This document shows, one piece after another, positions 1,890 to 52,085 of a stretch of DNA of 64,000 bases. Origin of the DNA: Dryococelus australis (lineage: Eukaryota > Arthropoda > Insecta > Phasmatodea > Phasmatidae). Each line of letters starts with the position of its first letter. The stretch's first letter is position 1. Where the stretch lies: contig CM056995.1 of assembly GCA_029891345.1 (NCBI GenBank), positions 215,640,547 through 215,704,546 of the forward strand, in the 5' to 3' direction. The position numbers and the translations under genes are program-made. A model generated the notes under the pieces. It was not told where the DNA came from and made no database searches. It saw only the letters and a list, made by a program, of their open reading frames with translations.

Positions 1890-2765
1890 AAAGCATTTCA
1901 AATACAATCTTCATGCCAGGGTATACTACAATAACATAAATGAAATAATCAGCAAGCATATTTCTCATTTGGCTGCATTGAATGAACCTCTAGAAGAATT
2001 CGAGTGGTTATCATCACTCAACTTTTGCATACTCAATGCACCTTCTCTTCATCTTAAGACCTTGTGTAGAGTACAGCATGTTTTAATTATCAGATTATCA
2101 AAATCACATTTCACGTTTAAGGTCTTGTGAATTACTTGCCATTTGTTTGAGAGTATGCCAAAAGTACTCTACACATACCTGCGAGTGAGAAATAATCTAT
2201 AATTCAGAACTTTTATTTGTATGAATAATCTACCACTATAAGTTCTCCTCATATTTCTTGAAAGGAAAGATGCCTCATCAGCAACAAACATATAAGGCAT
2301 TTCTGGACCTTCGGTGCCTGGGAGAGGTTTGCTTTTTGGAATATTCAGTGATCTGTTTTGAAGCTTTCTGTAAAAGAAAGATTTTTCAAATATTGTACTG
2401 TCTGAATCGTTCCCAAACGAAAAAAAAACATCAATGACTGTAAACACGTAGTTAACGTCACTAATAGCTAATAATATACCTGAGAAATAATTCTTACAGT
2501 TATGGAAAAGTGAGCCACTCATTTTTTGTTTCCTGATTCTAACATGCTTGCCACCTAAGTAATTAGGAAATTGGGCATACTTTTCAAAACCTGCTGCAAT
2601 TGTCTCCGTCTTTCTCCGGTTAATTAAGGAAAGCATTCTTCTTTCAGTGTACACCAAATTGCTTTGCAAACTCTTCTAATAATCTTATACAGCGTTTAAC
2701 GTACAATTATGTACTTCAAATGCAGGCCAATCTGATTACATCCACTACTTAAGTATCTGCCTACG
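1890..2765 (-). pseudogene. PIF/Harbinger transposase, decayed
   Basis: The main open stretch (2169-2669) carries the DDE_Tnp_4-type nuclease fold of HARBI1-like transposases: FPNYLGGKHVRIR, SGSLFHNCKNYFS, LLAISDVNYVFTVIDV, PYMFVADEASFLSRNM and NYRLFLTRRYV. The family works by DDE cut-and-paste transposition. In the first motif the usual alanine-isoleucine-Asp-Gly step before GKH is missing, so the first catalytic Asp is lost. The later Asp and Glu positions are present. A stop follows RRYV, yet the same frame continues with a recognisable C-terminal tail (STFGILSNKW, LHKVLR) to about 1.9 kb with further stops. On the 5' side a frame change separates a segment with IIRRVCKAIW and LKEECFP. It is a dead copy; I did not find its inverted ends. 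Confidence 0.85.
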
Positions 2766-18399: not shown

Positions 18400-21300
18400 T
18401 TATTAATAACTTTTTTAATTTTATTTAAACGATAAAATACTAAACAAACACAAACACTCGCTCAATAGTTCCCTTAGTTCCAGAACACTCTCATCTGCTT
18501 CCTAGACTACTCAGTTAAATCATCATTCATAGTTTTTACCAAATCATATATTTTACTAATAGTTTCATTTATTATTTCTACAATTTCCTTGTCATATATT
18601 ATGTTTTTGTATTAGCAATTTATCATTAAAAGATTTTAATTTCTGTTCTAATTTTTTTATTTTCATGTTTAAAATTTCACACAAGTACAGAATATGGTAT
18701 ACCGTCTGAGCTCCCTTTTCACATTGACAACTGTCGTCTTCTATTTTATTTATTTTAGCTAAATATTCATTAATTTGACAGTATCACGTTATTACTTTCA
18801 AAACACTATTATTTATATTGATTTTACTTTCGTACTATTGTTGTATATTTTTAATATAAATTTTAGTGTTTGGGCCGGTTTCTGTTGCATCGTACTCTGT
18901 TTGCCAATTTATAACACTTAGTTTATAGATTTCTTTCTTTAATTGTTTTAAACTAATAGGTTGATTATTTCTATTTTTGTCAATCCAAATATTATTGTGC
19001 TCTACTATCTTATTGTATGTATTTCCGTTGTATTCTATTTCGTCTACTTCATTTTTGTTTTAATATATCATATTTCTATCTTTTATACTATAGTCTATTG
19101 GTACTTCTTTACTAACAGTTATCGCAGATACATATGATGTGGTTGGTGTTAAATTCATAATTTTTATAAATACATACATATCTTTGTGATGCTCTTAGTA
19201 TTCTTTTAATGTGTATTTTCAATTTTATTTTTGTATCAAGTGCTAGCATATTGTATAATATTACGGTATGATGCCTGATATATTATTTTCTTACCTTTAT
19301 TATTATTATTTTTGATATTTCATATCGTTTGTTTTAATTTTTAAAATATATTCTTAACTTTTTCGGTTATACATTTAACGCGTGGGACTAAACTGATCTA
19401 TTATCAAAAATAATGCCCAAGTATACTATTTACTTTTAACTATCATTGTTTGTTTGTCATACTTGATTACTGGCGGTCTTTTATCTAATTTTCCTTTTAA
19501 AATTATAGCAACTGTTTCCCCTACTGATAATTTATGTTCTTTCTCTTTCATCCATATTAAAGTTTTATCCATTATTTTTTGTGTCCCTTCTTCTATTTCC
19601 TTTCTTGTATTACCTTCTATCAAAATTATACAATCGTCCGCGAATGCCACAATTTTTTAATCCTCATTATTGTTTTGTACTATGTAATCATTTATTACTA
19701 AATTCTATAGACTTGGCCCTATTACTGATCCTTGTGGACAGCCGCGAGTTATTTCCCTTTTTAACGTTATCTGATTATCTTGTACTATTATGTTCCGGTT
19801 ATTCAAATAGTCCCATAAAATTTCTTTCCATTTTTTATCTATTGGTATTTTATTAATCTGTTATTTAATATCTTTCCATGTCACCGTTGAAAATACGTTG
19901 CTTATGTCTATACCAATCAAATATTGATTACCAATATTGAAATTGAAATACCAATCAAATATTTTTTGTGCTTGTTCCTATTAAATGTAATACTTTATTT
20001 ATTGTCTGTTCGGTTGATTTTTTTCTCTAAATCCAAATTGGTTATCGTGAAGCGTTTTTTCTATTTCTGATTTAATTGTTCTATATATTATACTTCCGTA
20101 TGTTTTGACCAATGTTGGTAAGATACATATTGGTCTGTAGGAAGAATCCTTTGTTTTTAATTTATTCTTACTTTGTATAGAAATATTATCTTTCCTGTTT
20201 TCCATATTTCCGGATATCTGCTTAATGTATAGCATTTGTTTATAAGTTTTGTTAATATTTATTTTATTGTTTCCCATCTTTTATTTATTACTTCGATTGT
20301 TATCCGACAGATTCCCGGTGCTTTTTTAACGCTGTATCTTTTTATTACAATTTTAATATCTCCTTAATTAATTTCTTCAGATTCTTTTTCTCTTCTTCTT
20401 GCAAAGTATGAATTTCTATTTCTTCTTCTGTTCCTTCAAACAGAATCTATATTTACAACAGAAAGTAAGAATAAAGATTAGAACTGAAATGTCGGAAGAA
20501 AGCAGCATTGGGAGGGGCGTTAGACAAGGCTGTTACATTTCTGCCTTCTTCAATTTATACCTGGATGAGATTATTGGGAAATGCTTAGATGGAAGAAGAG
20601 GAGTGCGCATTGGCAGGAACAGAATAGAATGTGTAAGATTTGCCGATGATATGGTTTTATTAGCAGAGAGTGAAAGAACTATATCTAAAATGCTAAAAAA
20701 TCTGAATGAAACTTGTGAGGAGTATGGGATGAGAATCAATACATCAAAAACAAAGAGTATGGTATTTAGTAAAGGAAGGCAACCAGCAAATATTAAGATA
20801 GGACATGTTAATATCAGCCAAGTAAGAGCATTCAAATATCTAGGAAGTACGATAACTGAGGACTTGAAATGTCATCAGGTGTTGAAGACTCGTATTGCAG
20901 TAGCGAAGGAAGCGTTCTATAGGAAGAGGAGATTGCTATGCGGAAAACTAGATAAAGCACTGAGAAAAAGACTTGGCAAGTGTTTAGTATGGAGTGTGGC
21001 ACTCTATGGGGCAGAGACGTGGACACTGAGACGTGATGACGAAATAATGCTAGAAGCTTTTGTGATGTGGATGCGGAGGAATTTGGAGAGTATAAATGGG
21101 TGGAAAGAGTGAGTAATGAAGAAGTGCTGGAAAGAGTTGATTAGAGAAGAAAACTGCTGAAAGTCATAAGAGAAAGGAAGAAGAACTGGATGGGACACTA
21201 TTTGAGACGGGAGTGATTGCTAACAGACGCTATTGAAGGGATAGTTTGTGGAAAAAGATTGAAAGGAAGGAGAAGATACAAGTTAATAGATGACCTCAAG

Positions 21301-27829: not shown

Positions 27830-28936
27830 TTTCGAAGGCAAGAAGAGGACATCACATTAACTCGCAAGAGGTTGGTATGCACTCGTTCTCAGCTGCAGAT
27901 GATCCACCGAATTGAGTGTCCAACCCGAACCCTTCATCATCATTTCTTCTTCCTCGCAACATACCTTTTTTATATTATCATCTACACTCTTTTCGATGTC
28001 ATATACATTACAGAGTGATACATTCTGGGTCTTGAATGCCCTTCTGCATAAGTTGGTGTATTAAATTTTGTTTCATCCTTGACAGGAACGAGCAAACATC
28101 TTTCGACGAAGCTGTCGGATTCAGAGCAACATAATCTTTAAGCATGCCCCTGAATGCAGATTCCTCCAGAAAAAATCCATTGCCATTAGGTTAGTCTAGA
28201 ACATGGGGAGGTTTTCGAGCATGTGTTTACACTGTTTGACATGGCTGTCATACGACTCATAACACTGTTTTGCCTGAAGGTTATGTATTTCACGTCGCAC
28301 ATTGTCTGGGACGCCTTTTACTTCATAACACATGGACTTACAACCACACTTGGGGCAGGCAAGAGTCAAATAAGCCCATCCTGTCTTCTTCGTGCATTTA
28401 CCACCCTTCTCGGGCCTACGTGCATGACAACTTTTACTGAAGATCTTTCCGCAGTAGCGACACGATCGCCCCGATATCGTCGGCGAATTGACCATACCGT
28501 CCATATGCACATCCTCACCTACATATGGTAGCACCATTGCATCATCACTTACTGTACAAGGTAGATATGACAATTTTACATCATCATTACATACATCAGT
28601 ACTTGTAAGTCCATCACTGGTTTGTGGTAGCGACAATACATATTTTTTTTTTTTTAGGTTTTGCTGGTGAAGGAACAAGTCCTATACATATTATCGAATG
28701 TTGGTCAGTTTGTCAGTACGCTCAAACAGACGAAGGCACTTCTCACACTTATATGCCACGAGGAGCGGATTCATCTTACATTGGTGCTTTTCGTGTCGTC
28801 TAACATTGCTGCTATTTGCAAAGGCTTCATCACAGTACATGCATCGAAGTCTTGACACTGTTGGTTTGGGTCGCGTTGCCGATGGAGCTGCTGTAGGTGG
28901 CTCACCCAAAGAGGTCGATGACGCAGTCGATGTCAT
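27830..28936 (-). pseudogene. C2H2 zinc-finger / PolB N-terminal-like protein, broken
   Basis: Starts at ATG 28936. It has C2H2 fingers CMYCDEAFANSSNVRRHEKHQC and CEKCLRLFERTDKL, then two stops in the same frame (TAA, TAG just after 28691), then a finger-like CRYCGKIFSKSCHARRPEKGGKC and CPKCGC. After another stop and frame changes come FFLEESAFRGMLKDYVALNP and KGSGWTLNSVDHLQLRTSAY, a pattern I know from the region before the DNA polymerase B core in Maverick-type elements. In such elements the protein would act in DNA binding or replication. The polymerase catalytic motifs are absent here. Confidence 0.65.
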
Positions 28937-40029: not shown

Positions 40030-41405
40030 GCGCAGTTCCACGTACCTAATTTCAGCCATATTGGATTCACGTATACATTAGATAAAATATAGGTCTAGTG
40101 TATGTGCCCCTTTGCTAGATAACTATGAGTCGTGTGTTTGAAGACACAGTTAGGGAACAAGTGGAGAGTTCATGGCGACTGGCCTGGTTGTGAGTGTCAT
40201 CTGTGGTCGGGCAATGTCAAAGTAATATGAATAGGTATTTCGACTTAAGATCTCAGCCGTTTTCTATGCCAAATTATGGTAAATATTAAAAGCATCTTAA
40301 TATGTAACACTTATGTATTGTGTTAGAAGAGCAATATCTATAGAATGGAAAATGATATCAGCCTAAGTATTTTATAATAAGATTTCTGAACCAGGCACAA
40401 TGACAAATTATACATTTGTTATATTTTGCTGGACTTTTGCATAGAAAACTTATTCTGATTCATATAATGCCTATAGTTTTTAATTTCTAACAGCATAGAT
40501 TTTCTCCTTCCTTCATAGCTCTGTAGAAACTAAGTGAAAGTTCTCCATAGCATACATACCAGTACACTATAAACCATTTAATCTTCAAATCTTAAATGCA
40601 TAACGCAAAAGAAGAGCCATGCTACTCGGATAGGTACATGTCTAGACTTTGTATGCATCACATAGCCTTGCGATGGCCAATATAGCTTGTGTGTGAAAGT
40701 AAGACAACTAAGCTATATTTCAAACATAAACCTTGGCAGTATAGGCTGTTTCTGAAGCCACAGTACCTAACGCATTGTCTCTTCGTAATATCCACGAGCA
40801 CAACCATGCTGTGTGTACCTAAACAACAAACACTGAACATTTATTTGCAAACTCGTACATCGCGAAAGTTTACAACCGTTGTTTAAATTATATAATGTGA
40901 AACGGTATATCAGAAATGGTTGAAGTTTATACTCTTTGTTATACTGCGTCCATCCACATGTAAGTGGTAATACTCATTGATAATAAACAGATTGCATTTG
41001 TTTTATCAGCAAATCATTCTTTACACAGAGTATTTGACGTAACAAGGTATATGCTCTTAGCAGAGATATCAATAGCTCCTTAGCAACACGAGAGGCAGTG
41101 TTGTAGATTGTTGCGGTATCTACAGATACCCTCGAGCCAGCTACTGAAGACATGAACCAGAAATTAAGTTCTCTGTACTAGCGAAAGTCTTCACCACGTT
41201 GTTCGATAACATTTCATTTCGACTGCGATACTTATGTTCAGGTACACGTCACCATTTTTAACTGTGCAGGATTTTGGTGTGTGTTAATTTTATGTGTGTA
41301 AATTTTTTGTGCGCCGACACGTAATAAAAAAGTTGAATTTTCGTGTGTGCCCCGGTAATATCATACACTTTAGTTCTTCATAATATTTAGTGGTAAAGAT
41401 AAGAT
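40030..41405. other. Intergenic; left flank of the virus-like element
   Basis: No supported gene. Short frames near 40658-40886 have no domain. I compared 41.0-41.4 kb with 46.7-47.4 kb for inverted ends and found none that is convincing. Confidence 0.3.
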
Positions 41406-41411
41406 AAATAA

Positions 41412-41801
41412 TTATAAGTGGTTAATAGTGCATTGTATTTTCCTCCTGTAGTAATAAGGACAACCACTACCTATTTTATTATCCGTGCCCTTATCTGCTT
41501 CTTCTTCTTCGCCTTCTGCATTGTCCTCTTCTTCTTCAAAACAATTATTAATGGAATACGGAATTCTTCCAACATATTTCGATCTAGTTTGCTTATATAA
41601 CTCTAATTCTAGAAATGCATCTATTTCCTTATCGTAAACTGTAATTTTAGCATAACCATTCTTAAGTAAAATTGTATCTAAACAGTCTAGTGGGTAATCT
41701 TCTTCTAGCAAATTATTTAATTTTTCTCTGGTATCTTGGTAATGTTTCTTATTGCTGTAGAACAAAGCTAAAAGCTGGGAGTTAAGATCTTGGTTATCCA
41801 T
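41412..41801 (-). CDS. Virus-like element gene 1, acidic 129-residue protein
   Basis: Intact from ATG 41801. The N-terminal two thirds are mixed helical (LLALFYSNKKHYQDTREKLN); the C-terminal part is strongly acidic (EEEEDNAEGEEEEADKG) and then basic and aromatic. No family recognised. It is divergently arranged with the plus-strand gene at 41899, with a 97 bp A+T-rich spacer between the two ATGs, so the two probably share a promoter region. Confidence 0.65.
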   Translation of the reverse strand: MDNQDLNSQLLALFYSNKKHYQDTREKLNNLLEEDYPLDCLDTILLKNGYAKITVYDKEIDAFLELELYKQTRSKYVGRIPYSINNCFEEEEDNAEGEEEEADKGTDNKIGSGCPYYYRRKIQCTINHL

Positions 41802-41898
41802 TTATTAAACAAAGAAAAATTTACTTAAACATAAAGATTTACATAGAATATTCTATCTTTTTAAGTTTATTTATTTTAAAATATCTGTTGACAATTAA
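41802..41898. promoter_or_regulatory. 97 bp divergent intergenic spacer
   Basis: Only A+T-rich sequence lies between two head-to-head ATGs. It contains TTTATTTATTTTAAAATATC on the plus side and TAAATCTTTATG on the minus side. Promoter activity is inferred from the geometry; the second divergent pair (46276/46379) has the same layout. Confidence 0.45.
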
Positions 41899-42210
41899 AT
41901 GGAAAAGTTAACAGTTCCCGAATATATTGTACCTTGGGGAAAAAGATGTAGAGATAGTCAAAATAAAATAGAAAGAGAATTTTGTTTATTGTTGTATAGT
42001 TACTTAGGTTATAATGTCTTCCACATTTACTCGCCAGAAGATGGAACATTAATTCGTCCTATATATGTTATTGGAAAATATTGTATGAAAAAAGATATCG
42101 AAAGTTTCGTTGGAATTAACAGCAGCTATCCAACAGATATGCTAAATTATTTTAAAGAAAATAATATAGGTATACCAGAAAACTATCTTGTTACAGATGT
42201 TAATGTATAA
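41899..42210 (+). CDS. Virus-like element gene 2, 103-residue protein
   Basis: Intact from ATG 41899. Sequence features: MEKLTVPEYIVPWGKRCRD, FCLLLYSYLGYNVFHIYSPE, and GIPENYLVTDVNV at the end. It has conserved-looking cysteines and aromatics but no motif I can name. The absence of frameshifts in this and gene 1, against heavy damage in the larger genes, may reflect size alone. Confidence 0.65.
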   Translation: MEKLTVPEYIVPWGKRCRDSQNKIEREFCLLLYSYLGYNVFHIYSPEDGTLIRPIYVIGKYCMKKDIESFVGINSSYPTDMLNYFKENNIGIPENYLVTDVNV

Positions 42211-42319
42211 ATTAGGGTACTACCACATAGCACCTCGCTTATATCTTTAAGCAACCAAATTTATATTTATTTTTATTCTTTATATTTATTTGGTGTTGTT
42301 TTAATTTTTACTTTAGAAT

Positions 42320-42526
42320 TTAAATATATTTTTTATCTTGTATTTCTTGCTCCAAACAATAATTAGAACAAGAACAATCTGCAAGATTTTCGAATTTTAA
42401 TTTGTGTCTCGCTTTACCTCTATAATATACTTTTGATACATTGGATATAAGCAAATCCATCCCTTCTTCAAATGTTTCCAATCTTCTACATTCTACGAAT
42501 TTTATTTTTCCATTTATATCTCCCAT
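42320..42526 (-). CDS. Virus-like element gene 3, 68-residue protein
   Basis: Intact. It has four cysteines spread along the protein, including CSCSNYC near the end, and may bind metal. Its ATG lies 9 bp after the stop of gene 4, so the two are packed as in a viral or polycistronic unit. Function unknown. Confidence 0.6.
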   Translation of the reverse strand: MGDINGKIKFVECRRLETFEEGMDLLISNVSKVYYRGKARHKLKFENLADCSCSNYCLEQEIQDKKYI

Positions 42527-42535
42527 TTTTGTATT

Positions 42536-42769
42536 TTATATTACTTCTTTTGTATTTTCGTTATATTGCAACTCTCCTAAGTCACCTATAACTCCATAAA
42601 CTTCTATATTTGGATATGTATTGTCCTTGAAATATTTTGTTCCATTGGTTTTTATTTCCATAAAAGGTTCTTCTGTTGAATAATACATTATTTCTAAACC
42701 ATTGTATTCTATAAAACAAACCCCCTCCTTTATTAATAAATCTCAATTTTTACTAATTCTTATTAACAT
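42536..42769 (-). pseudogene. Virus-like element gene 4, one in-frame stop
   Basis: ATG at 42769, 3 bp after the stop of gene 5. A single TGA at 42743-42745 interrupts an otherwise open 77-codon frame (LLIKEGVCFIEYNGLEIMYY, then YPNIEVYGVIGDLGELQYNE). The stop is explained by a TGG-to-TGA change. No known family. Confidence 0.65.
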
Positions 42770-42772
42770 ATT

Positions 42773-43049
42773 TTAAAATATACCTTTAATGAAATAAACA
42801 TATTTAACTCCTTTATTTTCGCAAAGTGCACCTACATAGGTGTATTTTCCTTTACCATTTACCACAAATGCAGAGAGTTTATAACAGCTTTTTATATCTA
42901 AATATTTCCAGCACTTACTAAAATAATCAACAAATTCTAGTTCAGTTTCTTTAATTTTTTGATCTTTATCTAGCACTCTTTTATATTCTTCTTGTATACT
43001 TCTAGTTTTCTCTAAATATTATAATTTTCTTTTTTGGATACAAATTCAT
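42773..43049 (-). pseudogene. Virus-like element gene 5, one frameshift
   Basis: ATG at 43049 overlaps the TGA of the preceding gene as ATGA (43046-43049). The first 12 codons (MNLYPKKKIIIF) are in one frame; after a shift near 43012 the frame is open to 42773. The central part looks helical (SIQEEYKRVLDKDQKIKE), and the C-terminal half (YKLSAFVVNGKGKYTYVGAL, YVYFIKGIF) looks like a small beta domain. No family assigned. Confidence 0.6.
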
Positions 43050-44452
43050 TCTAATTCTTGTTCTCTTTTCTTAGTAGACAGCAGGTAAGGTGTATTAAGA
43101 ATATTTATTTCTGTAATAGTAGAAGGAAGTAGTTTATTGGTAATATTAGTCCTCTTTTGTAAAACTACTGGCATTAGATTTTTAGTTTTCGTCAACCCTG
43201 TATTTTCGATAATAATATCCTTAGGTATTACAGAAGACAATAAATTGATATAGATAAATATCTTTCTCCGGCTTTACTGTAACATTTATGGTTAATAGAT
43301 ACAATATTTGCATTCTCCATATCTTCTGTAATTTCTAAATAATTAATGGGCTTATAATTAAAACTAAATGCAGATAGAACGTACTTATTTAATTTGCGTC
43401 TTTCTTCCTTATTCTCTGCCAATTTAATTTGTATTCCAGTTTTTTTTTGTATTTTTATTTCCCCAATGAACATATTGCAGAAGATTGTTAAAAACAACGC
43501 AACAACTATTCTGTAAAGAATCTGCTAATTTTCCCTACATTCTAGAAAACGATACAGAATAAAATGGTTCATTTAGGAAATAATTTGTACTATTTTTTAT
43601 TAACCTTAAGCAATCTGTTAATGGGTAGAATTCTTGTTCTTCTTGGAAATCTTTGTTTGTATAGTTATAGATTGTTGCTTCTAGTCTTGTAATTCTATTT
43701 TCTTTTGATAATGTAGAAGCAAATATTAATTTTAATCTTCTACGTGGACAATTTAGAAAGTCTATAATATGGTTTCCAAGTTGTTTGTCAACTCATGGAC
43801 TTGTTAATTGGCAAAAAAATTCATTGTGGATCTTAACTCTAGAATTAGAATTTATCAATGTTAAACAATCTTTTCCAACAGAATTATTGTTATTAACTAC
43901 TACATTACATTTTTTATGTTCTCCTTGTAGAAAAAATACCTTGCATTAAAAATACCGGCGAAATCTTGTGTTATATCCAAATCCAAATAGTGTTCTTCTC
44001 CAAGTTCTTTTAAAACTTATGGTCTATGTTAATAATGTTTCTAACTTTACCTCTGCTAGCTATATTTTATATGGAATAGCAATTGGATTTTTATATATTT
44101 TTCTAATATTTTCTATATCTCGTTCTATAATCGGTTTAACACCTTTGTCTGCACATTGAAATCTAATAAGTAAGGATTATTTGCTTTAGCTCCATGTCTT
44201 GCCAAATTAAATTTAGAAAATCTAGATCTTAAAAAACTGTTAAAACTTCCACAAGCTTCTTTTTTTTTAAAAAAAGGATTTACTTATTTTTCATTTTTCC
44301 TTCGCAATCTAAAAAAAAACCTGTTATTTTAAAAACCACAAAGTTATCGCAAAATTTTCCTGTTATTGATATAAATTATTTTAATTTTTGTTCTCCATCT
44401 GTGTAGTTTTATTTCCTAGCAACTCTGTATTAGAATATTTGGTCGCAGACAT
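43046..44452 (-). pseudogene. Virus-like element gene 6, large core protein, broken
   Basis: The largest gene of the block, about 470 codons from ATG 44452 (MSATKYSNTELLG). It is broken by several stops and frameshifts, yet long stretches read cleanly: GVKPIIERDIENIRKIYKNP, HYLDLDITQDFAGIFNARYF, KIHNEFFCQLTSP, a segment with RITRLEATIYNYTN, SLQNSCCVVFNNLLQYVHWG, and KLNKYVLSAFSFNYKPINYL. The Arg-x-x-Arg-Leu-Glu segment is faintly like replication-initiator proteins of small replicons, but I cannot identify catalytic histidines, so that is only a lead. The two 3' sections (43228-43497 and 43046-43240) belong to this gene through a frameshift at their overlap. Confidence 0.6.
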
Positions 44453-44586
44453 TTGTTTTCAGCTTCCATTTGAGAGTACTTGGAAAATAAAAAAAGTAGC
44501 TGAAACTAAAGTGAGGTTGCTTTCTTATCTATATGAAATGCAGATAATTGTGTAATTATTTCTTCGTATATGAATTTATAAATCCT

Positions 44587-45521
44587 TTAAATATATCCTT
44601 CATTCAATACTGTATAATTGGGTGGTTGAAATGTGAATAATTCTACTTGATTATTTTCCTGTTTGCGAAAACTGGCATATAATTTAATGCTGGTTTTCAA
44701 CCCTCTGAATTTTATAATATTCTTGCGTATTATCTCAAAAACTATAGTTTTTATAGAACGTAAAAATTGGTTAGGCTCTGCTAAATTAAAAGAATTTTCA
44801 AAGCTATATTTTGACATCCTACTTTTAAAGGCTTTATTAACTAAGTAATTTTTATTGGTTCTTCTATTTCTTTTGCTATAAAACAAATTATTATAGAACG
44901 GAAATATTTCTTCCAATTCATTTCAATTTTCGGGATATAATTAATTGATATTTGCGTCAGCCAAAGGTAAGTTTGTAAAAATGTTCTTGTTATCCCTTCT
45001 TTTACCCGCTGGCTTTATTTCTAAGCATTACAAATACATTATTAGAAAATGGGAATTATTCATTTTAATTCCGTTTTCTCTTGTTTTACAAATAGATTAT
45101 TAGGAAATAGGAATATTTCTTTTAATTCCTTTTTCTTTTGTTTTACAAATAGATTATTAGAGAATGGGGGAAAAAAATATTTTCAATTTATTTTTATCTT
45201 TCGTATATTGATATTGGAATAAGAAAAAGGCAAATTTGCATAGTTTATTTTTCTTTGCTCATTAATAATAGCTCTAATTAAATCTGCTTTCCTTAAATTA
45301 TTTATATTTGTTACGTTAAAGCTTTTAGCTTTAGTTCTCAACTCAGCAACTGTTAAATCATTTAGATTTTCTCCTGCTTGATGAATTTTCCTAATAATGC
45401 TTGTAATAATCTCATCTTTACGTAATTTAGATCATTATGTTATGTTTAATTCTCTAGATGTAATTCTCAACTTAGTCACTCTCCTTTCACTCAGATCTAC
45501 TGCTGAATAATTCGTAGCCAT
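44587..45521 (-). pseudogene. Virus-like element gene 7, SAP/Rho_N-like N-terminus
   Basis: ATG at 45521 (MATNYSAVDLSERRVTKLR). After one stop and shift, NDLTVAELRTKAKSFNVTNI followed by NNLRKADLIRAIINEQRK is a SAP- or Rho_N-like helix-extended-loop-helix, a DNA/RNA-binding fold. The middle (45024-45200) has three tandem ~60 bp units coding ELKEIFLFPNNLFVKQ-like repeats, with a related fourth unit at 44876-44935. The C-terminal 109 codons (44587-44916) are open: KTSIKLYASFRKQENNQVEL and FTFQPPNYTV. I have seen similar N-terminal SAP-like plus C-terminal beta arrangements in arthropod virus-like transposons, but cannot name the family. Confidence 0.6.
45020..45200 (-). repeat. In-gene tandem repeat, three ~60 bp units
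   Basis: Plus-strand phrase TACAAATA(G/C)ATTATTAG(A/G)AA.(A/T)GGGAAT... recurs at about 45028, 45088 and 45146. It encodes a repeated peptide in gene 7, though individual units are now out of frame with each other. Confidence 0.7.
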
Positions 45522-45599
45522 ATTTGTTTATTTATAAGAAATAATAATTTTAAACATTAAAAAAATAAAGAAATGCAGAAATTTAAACATAGTGAAAAT

Positions 45600-46276
45600 A
45601 CTGGAATGAAGTCCTTGTAATAATAATCATTTTTAAAAATATTTAACTTCTTCTGTGATAATATTTCTCATTACAGCATTTTTTGCTTATTGTTGAATGT
45701 TTGTCTCTAGTGTTTTTATTAATAAAAAGTAATTTTATAGACTTATTTCCATTACGAACTGTGCATATTCTTGTAGGATAATTATCATTTTGAATTTCAT
45801 TAAGAATATCTATTGATGTATTGAGTGATTTAGTTTTTTATGCTCTTTGAGATATATAATACAAACGTATTTCCCACATTCACATAATATTTTACCATTA
45901 AAACTTTCTTTACATTTTGTCGTATGTTTGTCTATAGTCGCTTTATGAGGTTAAAATGAATTGATAGATTTATTCTCATTACATACTACACATGCCTTAT
46001 TTGAATAACCATGTCGAATTTAATTTGTATTATGCTATTTACTATTTTATTGTTTTTTTTTTTTTTTTTAGATTTAGTTTAGAAACATATTTTCCACATT
46101 CGCATATCACCTTCTCTTTTTTTTTAACTCGTACTGATTTTTTACATATTCAGCATAATTTTTTTTACAGGTGCTAATATGTTTATCTTTCGTGTGTTTA
46201 TGTGATGCAAAACTTTCCATGATTAATACTTCACAACATTCTTTTTACATTGCTTGGATATGGTATTATTTTCCAT
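45600..46276 (-). pseudogene. Virus-like element gene 8, zinc-finger protein, broken
   Basis: ATG at 46276 (MENNTISKQCKKN). On the minus strand the module CxxCNxNKS....HK.T.DKH..xC followed by (I/L)CECGKYV..x.L..H occurs twice clearly (at 45855-45995 and about 46075-46230) and a third time in worn form (45640-45775). These are CCHH/CCHC-type zinc modules that probably bind nucleic acid. Frameshifts and a T16-17 run (plus strand 46052-46069) break the frame. Confidence 0.6.
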
Positions 46277-46378
46277 TTCGAGCACCGTTACAATATTATT
46301 TAAAAAGAAAATTAAATTTTTAAGAGAGTGAAAAAATATTTTTCTTTAGTAACTTTTTTCCTTTTAAATAAACAAAAA
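46277..46378. promoter_or_regulatory. 102 bp divergent intergenic spacer
   Basis: Lies between head-to-head ATGs of gene 8 (minus, 46276) and gene 9 (plus, 46379). A+T-rich with TTTAAAAAGAAAATTAAA and AAATAAACAAAAA next to the gene 9 start. Same layout as 41802-41898. Confidence 0.45.
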
Positions 46379-46691
46379 ATGGAGGATCTGATCAACAAGT
46401 TGAACAATTCATATGAATTCACTAAACTAACGGATCTAGAAATCGATAAATGGTATGAAGAAATAGATGTTCGAAATTATAAATCTAAATTCGGTAAAAA
46501 AAATTAATTGTAATCTATATAAATCTATATCCCATACAAATCTATATAAAAATACTTTACCGGATCGCTATGCAAATATAATTGATGAAAATGATTTAAA
46601 ATTGATAAATGAGAAACAAATTTTTGTTTCATATAAAGGTTTAAAAGAAGCGAAAAATGGAAAAACTGTGCATGATATTCTATTCATGTAA
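46379..46691 (+). pseudogene. Virus-like element gene 9, one poly-A frameshift
   Basis: ATG at 46379 (MEDLINKLNNSYEFTKLTD). The frame breaks at a run of eight A (46496-46503): it stops just after that, while the next frame is open to 46691 (CNLYKSISHTNLY, then QIFVSYKGLKEAKNGKTVHD). A one-base length change in the run explains it. The pattern of short beta-strand-like segments before a YKGL..HDI end suggests a small OB-like domain; this is a guess from sequence texture. Confidence 0.6.
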
Positions 46692-47780
46692 TAAATTGAA
46701 TTTTATTAATTTGTATCTTTTTATTTGATTCTTAGCTTTATTTGCTTGATTAAGATTGTTCGCTTGCAAAATTGACATTTATAAAAAAAACGTGAAAAAT
46801 TGATTGAAAAGCGAGAAATGTGCATGTTTTTTTCCTTAAATTTTGATTTTTTTTTAAAGTGGCACAAATTGACACGAAATTTTTTGGCCAAATTTAAATT
46901 TTGCTTGCTTTTGGCTTAAATTTACATGCTTTTAGAGGAAAATTGCTTGTTTTGGAGAGCTCCTGTTTAAAAATTATTAGAGCCAAAATTTAGCCTCAAA
47001 AACCTTGATTTTGAAGCAAAATAACCTCGTAATTTCGATGAAAATAAAAAGTGACATAGAATCGGCCTTATCGATCTACTGTTAAGATTTCTCCAAGTTC
47101 GTTATTCTCGGAGCTCTGATTGAAGATAAGAAGAAAAATCATTTTCTTTCCTTCACCAGTGCGCCGATAATAATGAAGGCAGTGAAAATCTAACAACGTA
47201 AAAAGGTGTTGAAAATTATTATTTACGTCTTGTCGAGCCAAAACTTTGGATAAACGCTTTGGAAAACGACTTACATAGAAAATTGGGTAAATATACTGCT
47301 TTCATGCACCATTACCTTTAAGGTCCGGTGCGCACCAGATAATATTGTGTATTTGGTCCCATACAAATCAAAGGCTTTTGGTCTTTGTGCCAAATTAGTA
47401 TTTAATAATTGGTTTTGTTACTTTTCTTTCGTGTAATAATTTAAATATTACCTGAGGTAAAAGACAAACATCTTGTGAAGTAAGAATAACAGGAGCCAGT
47501 TAATTGCCCTCGGTATTTCCTCGTGGTGGCGTGATGTGTTGAGGATAATTAGAGAAGACGAATGTGTTACATAACGCGCCTCGCACCCAGAAATTTTGTA
47601 ATAACTTCATCCAAAACCTGAATATAACTGCAGATAAGGTGAAGATTTTAATAATGGTAGGCATGAATGGCGTATATTATTTCGTCATCAGCTCAATCAT
47701 AATGAGTTGCCACAAAATCCACACAGATAATTTTATAGAACTAATTTCCTTTGAGCAACCGTTATATATAAATACAAATA
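46692..47780. other. Right flank of the virus-like element
   Basis: A+T-rich until 47.05 kb, then mixed. 46.75-47.05 kb has several near-repeats of AAATTT(A)AATTTTGCTTG type. The 47564-47785 frame has no domain. No inverted partner of the left flank was found. Confidence 0.3.
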
Positions 47781-51569: not shown

Positions 51570-52085
51570 ACACTATCGACCAAAAAGTAATTGGGCACCC
51601 ATGAAGACAGACAATTCAGTACGGCAGTAGACTTGTGTGTCCGCCATATGCTGCAGGCCCGTGTAGAACCAGTTGACAAGGAGATGGCACGAGGTACAGA
51701 GCTATTGCAATTCTATAATGGCGTGATTGTGGCCTGCCAGCTCAGTGGTCTGTCTAGCCAGGCGATTGCACGGACGGTAAACAGGCCCAAATCAACGGTC
51801 GCATTCGTCCTGCGTAAGTGGAAGGTCGATTGGCATTGTGTCAATGCTGCACGTTCTGGGCGACCTCCAATCTTGACCGACAGAAATCGCAGAACCCTGA
51901 AACATGAAAATAGGATAGGGAGTCCGGGACGTACGGCACATTACCCTGCTCTTCCTTACCCACATTCCTGGACAAGCATGGAGAAATTGGACAGGCGGAG
52001 AAAGAAAACCTTGAGTGAACTACGCTAACATCTGAGGAAACCACCGTCAACTTGGTGACTGTCCACACCTGCTCGGAAGAAAGGT
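51570..52085 (+). pseudogene. Tc1-like transposon fragment, DNA-binding half
   Basis: Begins with an end-like CACTATCGACCAAAAAGTAATTGGGC. The transposase most likely starts at ATG 51684 (MARGTELLQFYNGVIVACQL), followed by SGLSSQAIARTVNRPKSTVA and FVLRKWKVDWHCVNAARSGRPP: the paired helix-turn-helix and GRPP/GRPR hinge of Tc1-like transposases. It goes out of frame after RNRRTLKHE and ends near an AG microsatellite. The catalytic domain is missing. Confidence 0.85.

Follow-up and report, generated by a model that had tools for sequence, protein, structure and literature searches.

The 64,000-nucleotide stretch of the Dryococelus australis genome analysed here (the window) carries at positions 41251–47080 an AT-rich block of short open reading frames (ORFs), which is very probably a dead, decayed, internally deleted and non-autonomous copy of a Polinton (Maverick). 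The GC content of this block is 0.262, compared to 0.375 in the remaining window. The N-terminal part of a Polinton DNA polymerase gene and one Polinton-type terminus are retained, and the deletion joins the polymerase gene to the fixed end, at 44536, of an accessory block that comprises gene 1, gene 2 and an orphan insect gene. Relatives were searched for in the same genome (3,415,067,245 bases, 646 contigs), where 150 matches were scored per query unless stated otherwise; counts of first-look candidates are not copy numbers. Loci designated L are sister copies or relatives taken from this genome, except L066, which is a viral contig.

Polymerase remnant, termini and relatives

The polymerase part occupies 44537–45520 on the minus strand, being cut at the junction and having an approximate upstream limit. 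Two ORFs within it are parts of one protein, a terminal-protein region (44590–44922) and a Rho_N/SAP-like region (45186–45431; Rho_N, E = 1.5e-11). The former, of 111 aa, gave 7987 first-look candidates, 150 of which were scored; twelve of its loci were fetched, one being the window itself, and six others were read (L036, L038, L040, L043, L044 and L046). In 6/6 loci the SAP-like ORF and this ORF follow each other in the same order (the SAP piece is weak in L038), five of the six, read as frames, were seen by eye to continue into OTU-like and exonuclease-like regions, and all six match parts of a 1299-aa polymerase-like protein encoded on the 17.4-kb contig L066. This protein bears exonuclease motifs I, II and III and polymerase motifs A, B and C in this order, under the customary patterns and names of such motifs. 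Such motifs mark these polymerases according to an excerpt of PMC3511435, and the long N-terminus of the protein agrees with that of eukaryotic protein-primed polymerases described in an excerpt of PMC11071308. Beside it lies an rve integrase domain (6.7e-8, over the Pfam cut-off). Adintoviruses, or animal polinton viruses, are linear elements with polymerase and integrase, and L066, on which both occur together, resembles them; it is set beside them by description.

The left limit of the relic was placed at about 41250 (±10): homology with L017 and L019 begins at 41252, and L067, an empty-site paralogue, aligns to 41220–41259 and picks up again at 47318. The right limit is the Polinton-type terminus ...ATCTACT, set by comparison with L018, L010 and L009, where the same terminus occurs, and the right terminal repeat (46740–47080, plus strand) matches the ends of L009, L010, L012, L014, L018 and L024. 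Outside the element, a 241-bp high-copy repeat (47081–47321, plus strand) abuts the terminus and masks any target duplication; it gave 2838 first-look candidates, of which 40 were scored, and the long matches mostly span the query from about 1–18 to 236–245. GTTAAG at 47081 was tried as a target duplication and rejected, being the start of this repeat. The repeat also has partial self-inverted matches (about 18–163), resembling a miniature inverted-repeat transposable element, and the left flank (40700–41250) belongs to an old interspersed repeat, for which 32 further matches were found at 68–83% identity, contigs C2 and C3 holding many of these.

The family of copies shows terminal inverted repeats with AGT ends (AGTAGAT//ATCTACT) and 6-bp target duplications, by which Polintons are recognised: L010 has TATGTT and L018 has ACTTAT on both flanks, each a perfect duplication, and in L009 5/6 bases agree. 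Inverted ends beginning with AGT and 6-bp duplications are described for vertebrate Mavericks in an excerpt of PMC8097293. In sister copies, gene 1 has a phospholipase A2 gene (3.3e-11) in its neighbourhood, as well as a double jelly-roll capsid-like gene and an rve piece that both score under their cut-offs, and the copies and their relatives resemble Polintons (Polintoviricetes), as far as excerpts of PMC8097293 and PMC11071308 describe them, in the long N-terminus of the polymerase and in pieces of double jelly-roll (DJR)-like capsid, phospholipase-A2-type and rve integrase genes. Unlike them, the window copy is deleted and broken and carries an accessory block with an orphan gene, joined in sister copies by Bro-N and matrixin genes, and nested deletions from one fixed end and palindromic copies are found here.

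An earlier interpretation of this DNA from its letters and predicted ORFs (the sequence-only reading) had seen neither polymerase B nor a match to a standard Polinton. Judged by the match of their relatives to the L066 protein, the window pieces are probably a polymerase N-terminus, which together with the Polinton terminus contradicts both statements. Its alternative of a partial element was borne out, the polymerase being cut at 44537 and one terminus being left, and the SAP/Rho_N-like call was correct. As that reading had said of integrase, ATPase and capsid motifs, none of the remaining polymerase, capsid, ATPase, protease and integrase genes was seen in the window copy. No left Polinton terminus was found there by terminus pattern and comparison with sister ends; the full gene set, two termini and target duplication of an autonomous Polinton are thus not seen in this copy. 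Rfam and tRNA scans of the window gave no matches.

A fixed breakpoint with varied partners

The fixed end of the block formed by gene 1, gene 2 and the orphan gene (44481–44536, plus strand) consists of a possible hairpin followed by TATATGA, and at the junction 44536/44537 the polymerase gene meets the upstream side of the orphan gene. This shared end (...CTTACCTATATGA), for which 45 rows were listed and about half of these read, was found in 24 arms of 23 copies (window included, point differences allowed, L013 counted twice), and in L059 the end lies about ten bases short of the fixed point. It was not present in the 241 bases read of L047, none turned up in L011, L019, L025 and L027, and in L015 the locus ends within the right arm.

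The sequences adjoining the fixed end were scored in 24 stretches (23 arms and L059, the left arm of L013 being excluded). They belonged to the polymerase in 3/24 (the window, L044 and L059), to capsid-like genes in 4/24 (L017, L055, L060 and L063, the last matching just an ORF taken for a capsid N-terminus), to ATPase-like genes in 2/24 (L028 and L064), to phospholipase in 1/24 (L021) and to the terminal region in 13/24 (L013, L015, L018, L048, L049, L050, L052, L053, L054, L056, L057, L058 and L061); one partner had no match (L051). The partner in L048 also matches a small ORF of L021. Phospholipase was tried for L015 and not confirmed by blastx, its partner being terminal region instead. 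The terminal partners all run outward on the plus strand (13/13), the polymerase partners all retain the N-terminal side (3/3), which leads to the terminus in the window, and the capsid (4/4 forward), ATPase (2/2 forward) and phospholipase (1/1 reverse) partners lie on the strands expected from the gene order of L034 and L027, this group being assumed to lead to the same terminus. With Polinton sequence as partner in 23/24 stretches and with consistent polarity, the copies are therefore a nested series of deletions that share one fixed end.

The fixed end can be drawn as a hairpin, in which 86.9% of cells pair compared to 37–57% when it is slid; covariation in the hairpin did not exceed that of shuffles (63/500 reach the score; 14 rows, one subtype), and single-copy folding scores were mixed. 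The breakpoint may have become fixed by a nickase encoded by the orphan gene, by a structure-specific cut at the hairpin, or as an ancestral junction. In one version, for which we see rather little chance, the orphan family would be a site-specific nickase or recombinase acting at 44481–44536 upstream of its own gene, by which the carrier Polinton repeatedly sheds its virion and replication genes outward; if so, the block would be a hitch-hiking module that makes short non-autonomous Polintons, comparable to a defective-interfering or satellite strategy. No literature on fixed-end Polinton deletions or palindromic Polintons was found among the matches listed.

Palindromic copies, a proposed origin and its alternatives

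The 150 matches to gene 1 resolve into 137 copies with 11 close pairs, of which 10 are convergent (tail-to-tail), 0 divergent and 1 on the same strand. Nine of the ten convergent pairs were fetched, having been picked for being pairs; L009–L016 are long inverted repeats, and L017 has a palindrome of 818 bp that surrounds gene 1. Over the part that holds gene 1, the two arms of a copy are 92–100% alike in 7/8 (L013: 81.8%), and 84–91% alike when compared to five other copies. Because of this likeness within copies and the target duplications of L010 and L009, the results point to insertion of the palindromes as units. A deletion derivative of the linear plasmid kalilo is said to form hairpin and duplex DNA, reportedly in work of Vierula and Bertrand from 1992; it would likewise be a deleted, palindromic form of a linear replicon with protein-primed replication, whereas kalilo is a mitochondrial plasmid and the copies described here are chromosomal and have target duplications.

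In our reading, protein-primed replication and repair of linear DNA gave rise to both the fixed breakpoint and the palindromes. A Polinton would be a virus-like element of linear DNA that replicates by protein priming, is inserted by integrase, carries accessory genes and exists extrachromosomally as linear copies with protected termini. A break or nick would occur at the fixed end, the accessory-block side would be protected, and the other side would be trimmed by varying lengths and then rejoined. Such shortened molecules would be inserted by integrase provided in trans by other copies, and palindromic copies would have arisen by snap-back during this linear replication. A one-way nested series and inserted palindromes with target duplications would be expected if linear, terminally protected extrachromosomal DNA was integrated. 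The deleted copies record how Polintons break down, and such genomic fossils make it testable whether Polintons of animals replicate in the form of linear, virus-like DNA; the orphan gene family beside the breakpoint is a concrete enzyme candidate.

Several observations weigh against assigning the relic to Polintons or against the origin proposed for it. The Pfam model DNA_pol_B_2 does not find the 1299-aa protein of L066, and PDB and PHROG searches with it gave weak endonuclease VII matches and no polymerase, so that we call it polymerase-like from its motifs and neighbours. The DJR capsid-like piece (L021:8589–8861, PF21738, E = 5.3e-6) scored 26.3 bits and narrowly missed the cut-off of 27, and the rve piece (L034:2528–2773, E = 1.4e-5) scored 25.7 bits, under the cut-off of 32.6. 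Pieces of L034 that we take for a packaging ATPase and a cysteine protease were named by their motifs and had no Pfam match except one weak unrelated match at 0.067. Moreover, the integrase, ATPase and protease pieces all come from this one locus of several nested copies and may belong to an element other than that of gene 1, and no complete element bearing the accessory block is among the loci read. Both ends were found by pattern in 3/20 ten-kb loci; the window copy has a single terminus with another repeat as its right flank, and its target duplication is unreadable because 47081–47321 is a separate high-copy repeat. As for the palindromes, the margin is small in L014 (92.8% against up to 91.4%), and arm likeness could also stem from gene conversion; the break-and-trim and snap-back steps are ones that we infer. 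The DJR model had no match in two sister pieces, nor on the L066 record, where the control was silent as well; the capsid-like query gave 10,421 first-look candidates in the genome, 150 of which were scored.

The block of gene 2 and the orphan gene, perhaps together with gene 1, could instead be a mobile element in its own right, such as one of rolling-circle-like type, which has its true terminus at 44536, inserts into or recombines with Polintons and causes adjacent deletions. One precise end in 24 arms with varied partners, the strong pairing of the drawn hairpin, an orphan gene that starts close inside this end, and more first-look candidates for the orphan than for gene 1 (667 > 270) all suit such an element. 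Nevertheless we hold it to be unlikely: Polinton partners of consistent polarity in 23/24 stretches are not expected of free insertion, L051 alone being possibly host DNA, and no second fixed end was found. A discrete unit of gene 2 and the orphan gene with two fixed ends was indeed tried and dropped, since in L026 gene 1 is separated from gene 2 by a Bro-N gene and the left breakpoints vary. The hairpin, for its part, is not backed by covariation, its folding scores are mixed, and among the models of nickases and transposases none matches the orphan family, the transposase in one aphid relative (AGLY_017629) being a separate fused domain.

Assembly artefacts as the source of the palindromes and shared junctions are highly improbable. 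The arms of L012 are identical and those of L009 99.3% alike in the gene 1 part, as in hairpin-read artefacts, but six other palindromes have arms 5–18% diverged, the perfect target duplication of L010 lies outside its palindrome, and the junction partners differ among themselves and are on many contigs. Hardly credible, finally, is an origin from an endogenous DNA virus that is undescribed and not related to Polintons; the sequence-only reading had named an undescribed endogenous DNA virus as one possibility. Bro-N and matrixin genes occur in large insect viruses and both are present in sister copies, and gene 1, gene 2 and the orphan gene match Pfam and PHROG families with weak scores at most; this idea is largely refuted by the polymerase and partner evidence, since the same relic holds a Polinton polymerase N-terminus and a Polinton-type terminus and its relatives fuse the block directly to capsid-, phospholipase- and ATPase-like genes. 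No sign of a virus group of its own was seen, and what remains is one gene family without a Pfam model. The deleted-Polinton reading is thus retained, the accessory block (the orphan insect gene, with Bro-N and matrixin in sister copies) and the fixed breakpoint being unusual features of a known kind of element.

Accessory genes, decayed frames and other remains

Gene 1 (41412–41801, minus strand, 129 aa; no Pfam match above cut-off) and gene 2 (41899–42210, plus strand, 103 aa; family unassigned) have intact frames. They gave 270 and 255 first-look candidates in the genome, respectively, with 150 scored for each (self included), so these are not chance frames; no relative of gene 2 was found in the protein database. 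In base shuffles of 41251–46700, an ATG-initiated ORF of 129 aa occurred in 1/300, and a pair of ORFs of 100 aa or more likewise in 1/300. A small ORF of 68 aa (42320–42526, minus strand) is either a gene in its own right or the last part of the orphan gene.

The orphan gene (42536–44470, minus strand, start approximate) lies in several pieces: the ORFs at 42536, 42773, 43046, 43228 and about 43538 are parts of one broken gene, and in a sister copy (L027:4946–5650) three of these stretches read as a single 235-aa frame when compared by eye. Residues 188–452 of the Planococcus citri protein LOC135836843 (611 aa), which was reached via a natural relative of 428 aa encoded in the genome of the window, align by tblastn to 44022–43246 across stops and frame changes (E = 2e-49). 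The ORFs of 42536–44022 form a single pseudogene that belongs to an orphan insect family. No relative turned up on viral contigs when these were scanned with an orphan piece, gene 2 or the P. citri protein, PDB sequence searches gave no useful match, and among Pfam and PHROG models no nickase, Rep/HUH or transposase model matched the orphan family. A likeness of the orphan protein to rolling-circle Rep and fungal hypothetical proteins was considered and dropped, no search supporting it. In Aphis glycines AGLY_017629, a piece of the orphan family is fused to a piggyBac-type transposase (DDE_Tnp_1_7, 1.7e-70), perhaps by an annotation join over an insertion.

Upstream of the polymerase lies a broken zinc-finger-like gene with CECGKY repeats (45646–46276, minus strand), two pieces of which had no Pfam match; L036 and L040 were seen by eye to carry similar repeats on the upstream side of the polymerase too. 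The terminus-proximal gene (46379–46691, plus strand), here in two frames, has relatives in L002, L009, L014, L016, L018 and L027, and a frame of L009 spans both of its parts (46379–46507 and 46467–46691).

The nine genes of the sequence-only reading thus reduce to about six, most of them broken, and its large core protein with an RLE segment corresponds to the orphan pseudogene. Both head-to-head pairs it described are exact: the ATG codons of gene 1 (41801, minus) and gene 2 (41899, plus) are separated by 97 bp, and those at 46276 (minus) and 46379 (plus) by 102 bp. The ATGA at 43046–43049 is placed correctly and sits inside one broken gene, so that it is no overlap of genes. A compact virus-like relic rather than host genes still describes the block; much of the tightness that had been taken for viral packing comes from decayed reading frames. 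Pooled ratios of nonsynonymous to synonymous substitution rates (dN/dS) between window pieces and sister copies were 0.77 for gene 1 (n = 20 copies), 0.73 for gene 2 (n = 12), 0.51 for the small ORF (n = 8 with at least 40 codons aligned), 0.58 for the polymerase piece and, for three pieces of the orphan gene, 0.47, 0.52 and 0.88. The values of gene 1, gene 2 and the orphan piece at 0.88 are near neutral, and single pairs reach above 1; this pattern fits coding genes that decayed later.

In sister copies, the Bro-N gene scored 1.7e-9. Bro-N has reportedly been met in a polinton-like context, in Polinton-like viruses of Oxyrrhis, where it is said to involve a polymerase fusion; unlike there, it is here a separate accessory gene and is carried by sister copies, not by the window. 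Matrixin-type metalloprotease genes occur in L020:295–522 and L023:1226–1549 (Pfam 1.5e-14 and 2.9e-14) and, by similarity, in L010:5593–6209; they adjoin gene 1 relatives, with a weak hemopexin-like piece, and in L010 the gene lies between the palindrome arms. Degenerate short repeats (frames of the 'KSCTKND' kind or its reverse) are located near the terminal side of gene 1 relatives in L009, L010, L012, L014 and L024.

Frames resembling a retrotransposon, with reverse transcriptase and integrase motifs recognised by eye, lie beside L017 (L033:71–3108). Elsewhere in the window, an open frame of 161 aa with CxxC-type motifs (28199–28681, minus strand) had no Pfam match at 0.01, and other transposon remains are a DDE_Tnp_4 piece (2172–2675, minus strand, 4.9e-5, just under the cut-off), a Sleeping-Beauty-type helix-turn-helix (51591–52025, plus strand, 3.2e-6, under the cut-off) and a reverse transcriptase (RVT_1; 20372–21109, plus strand, 3.7e-16).

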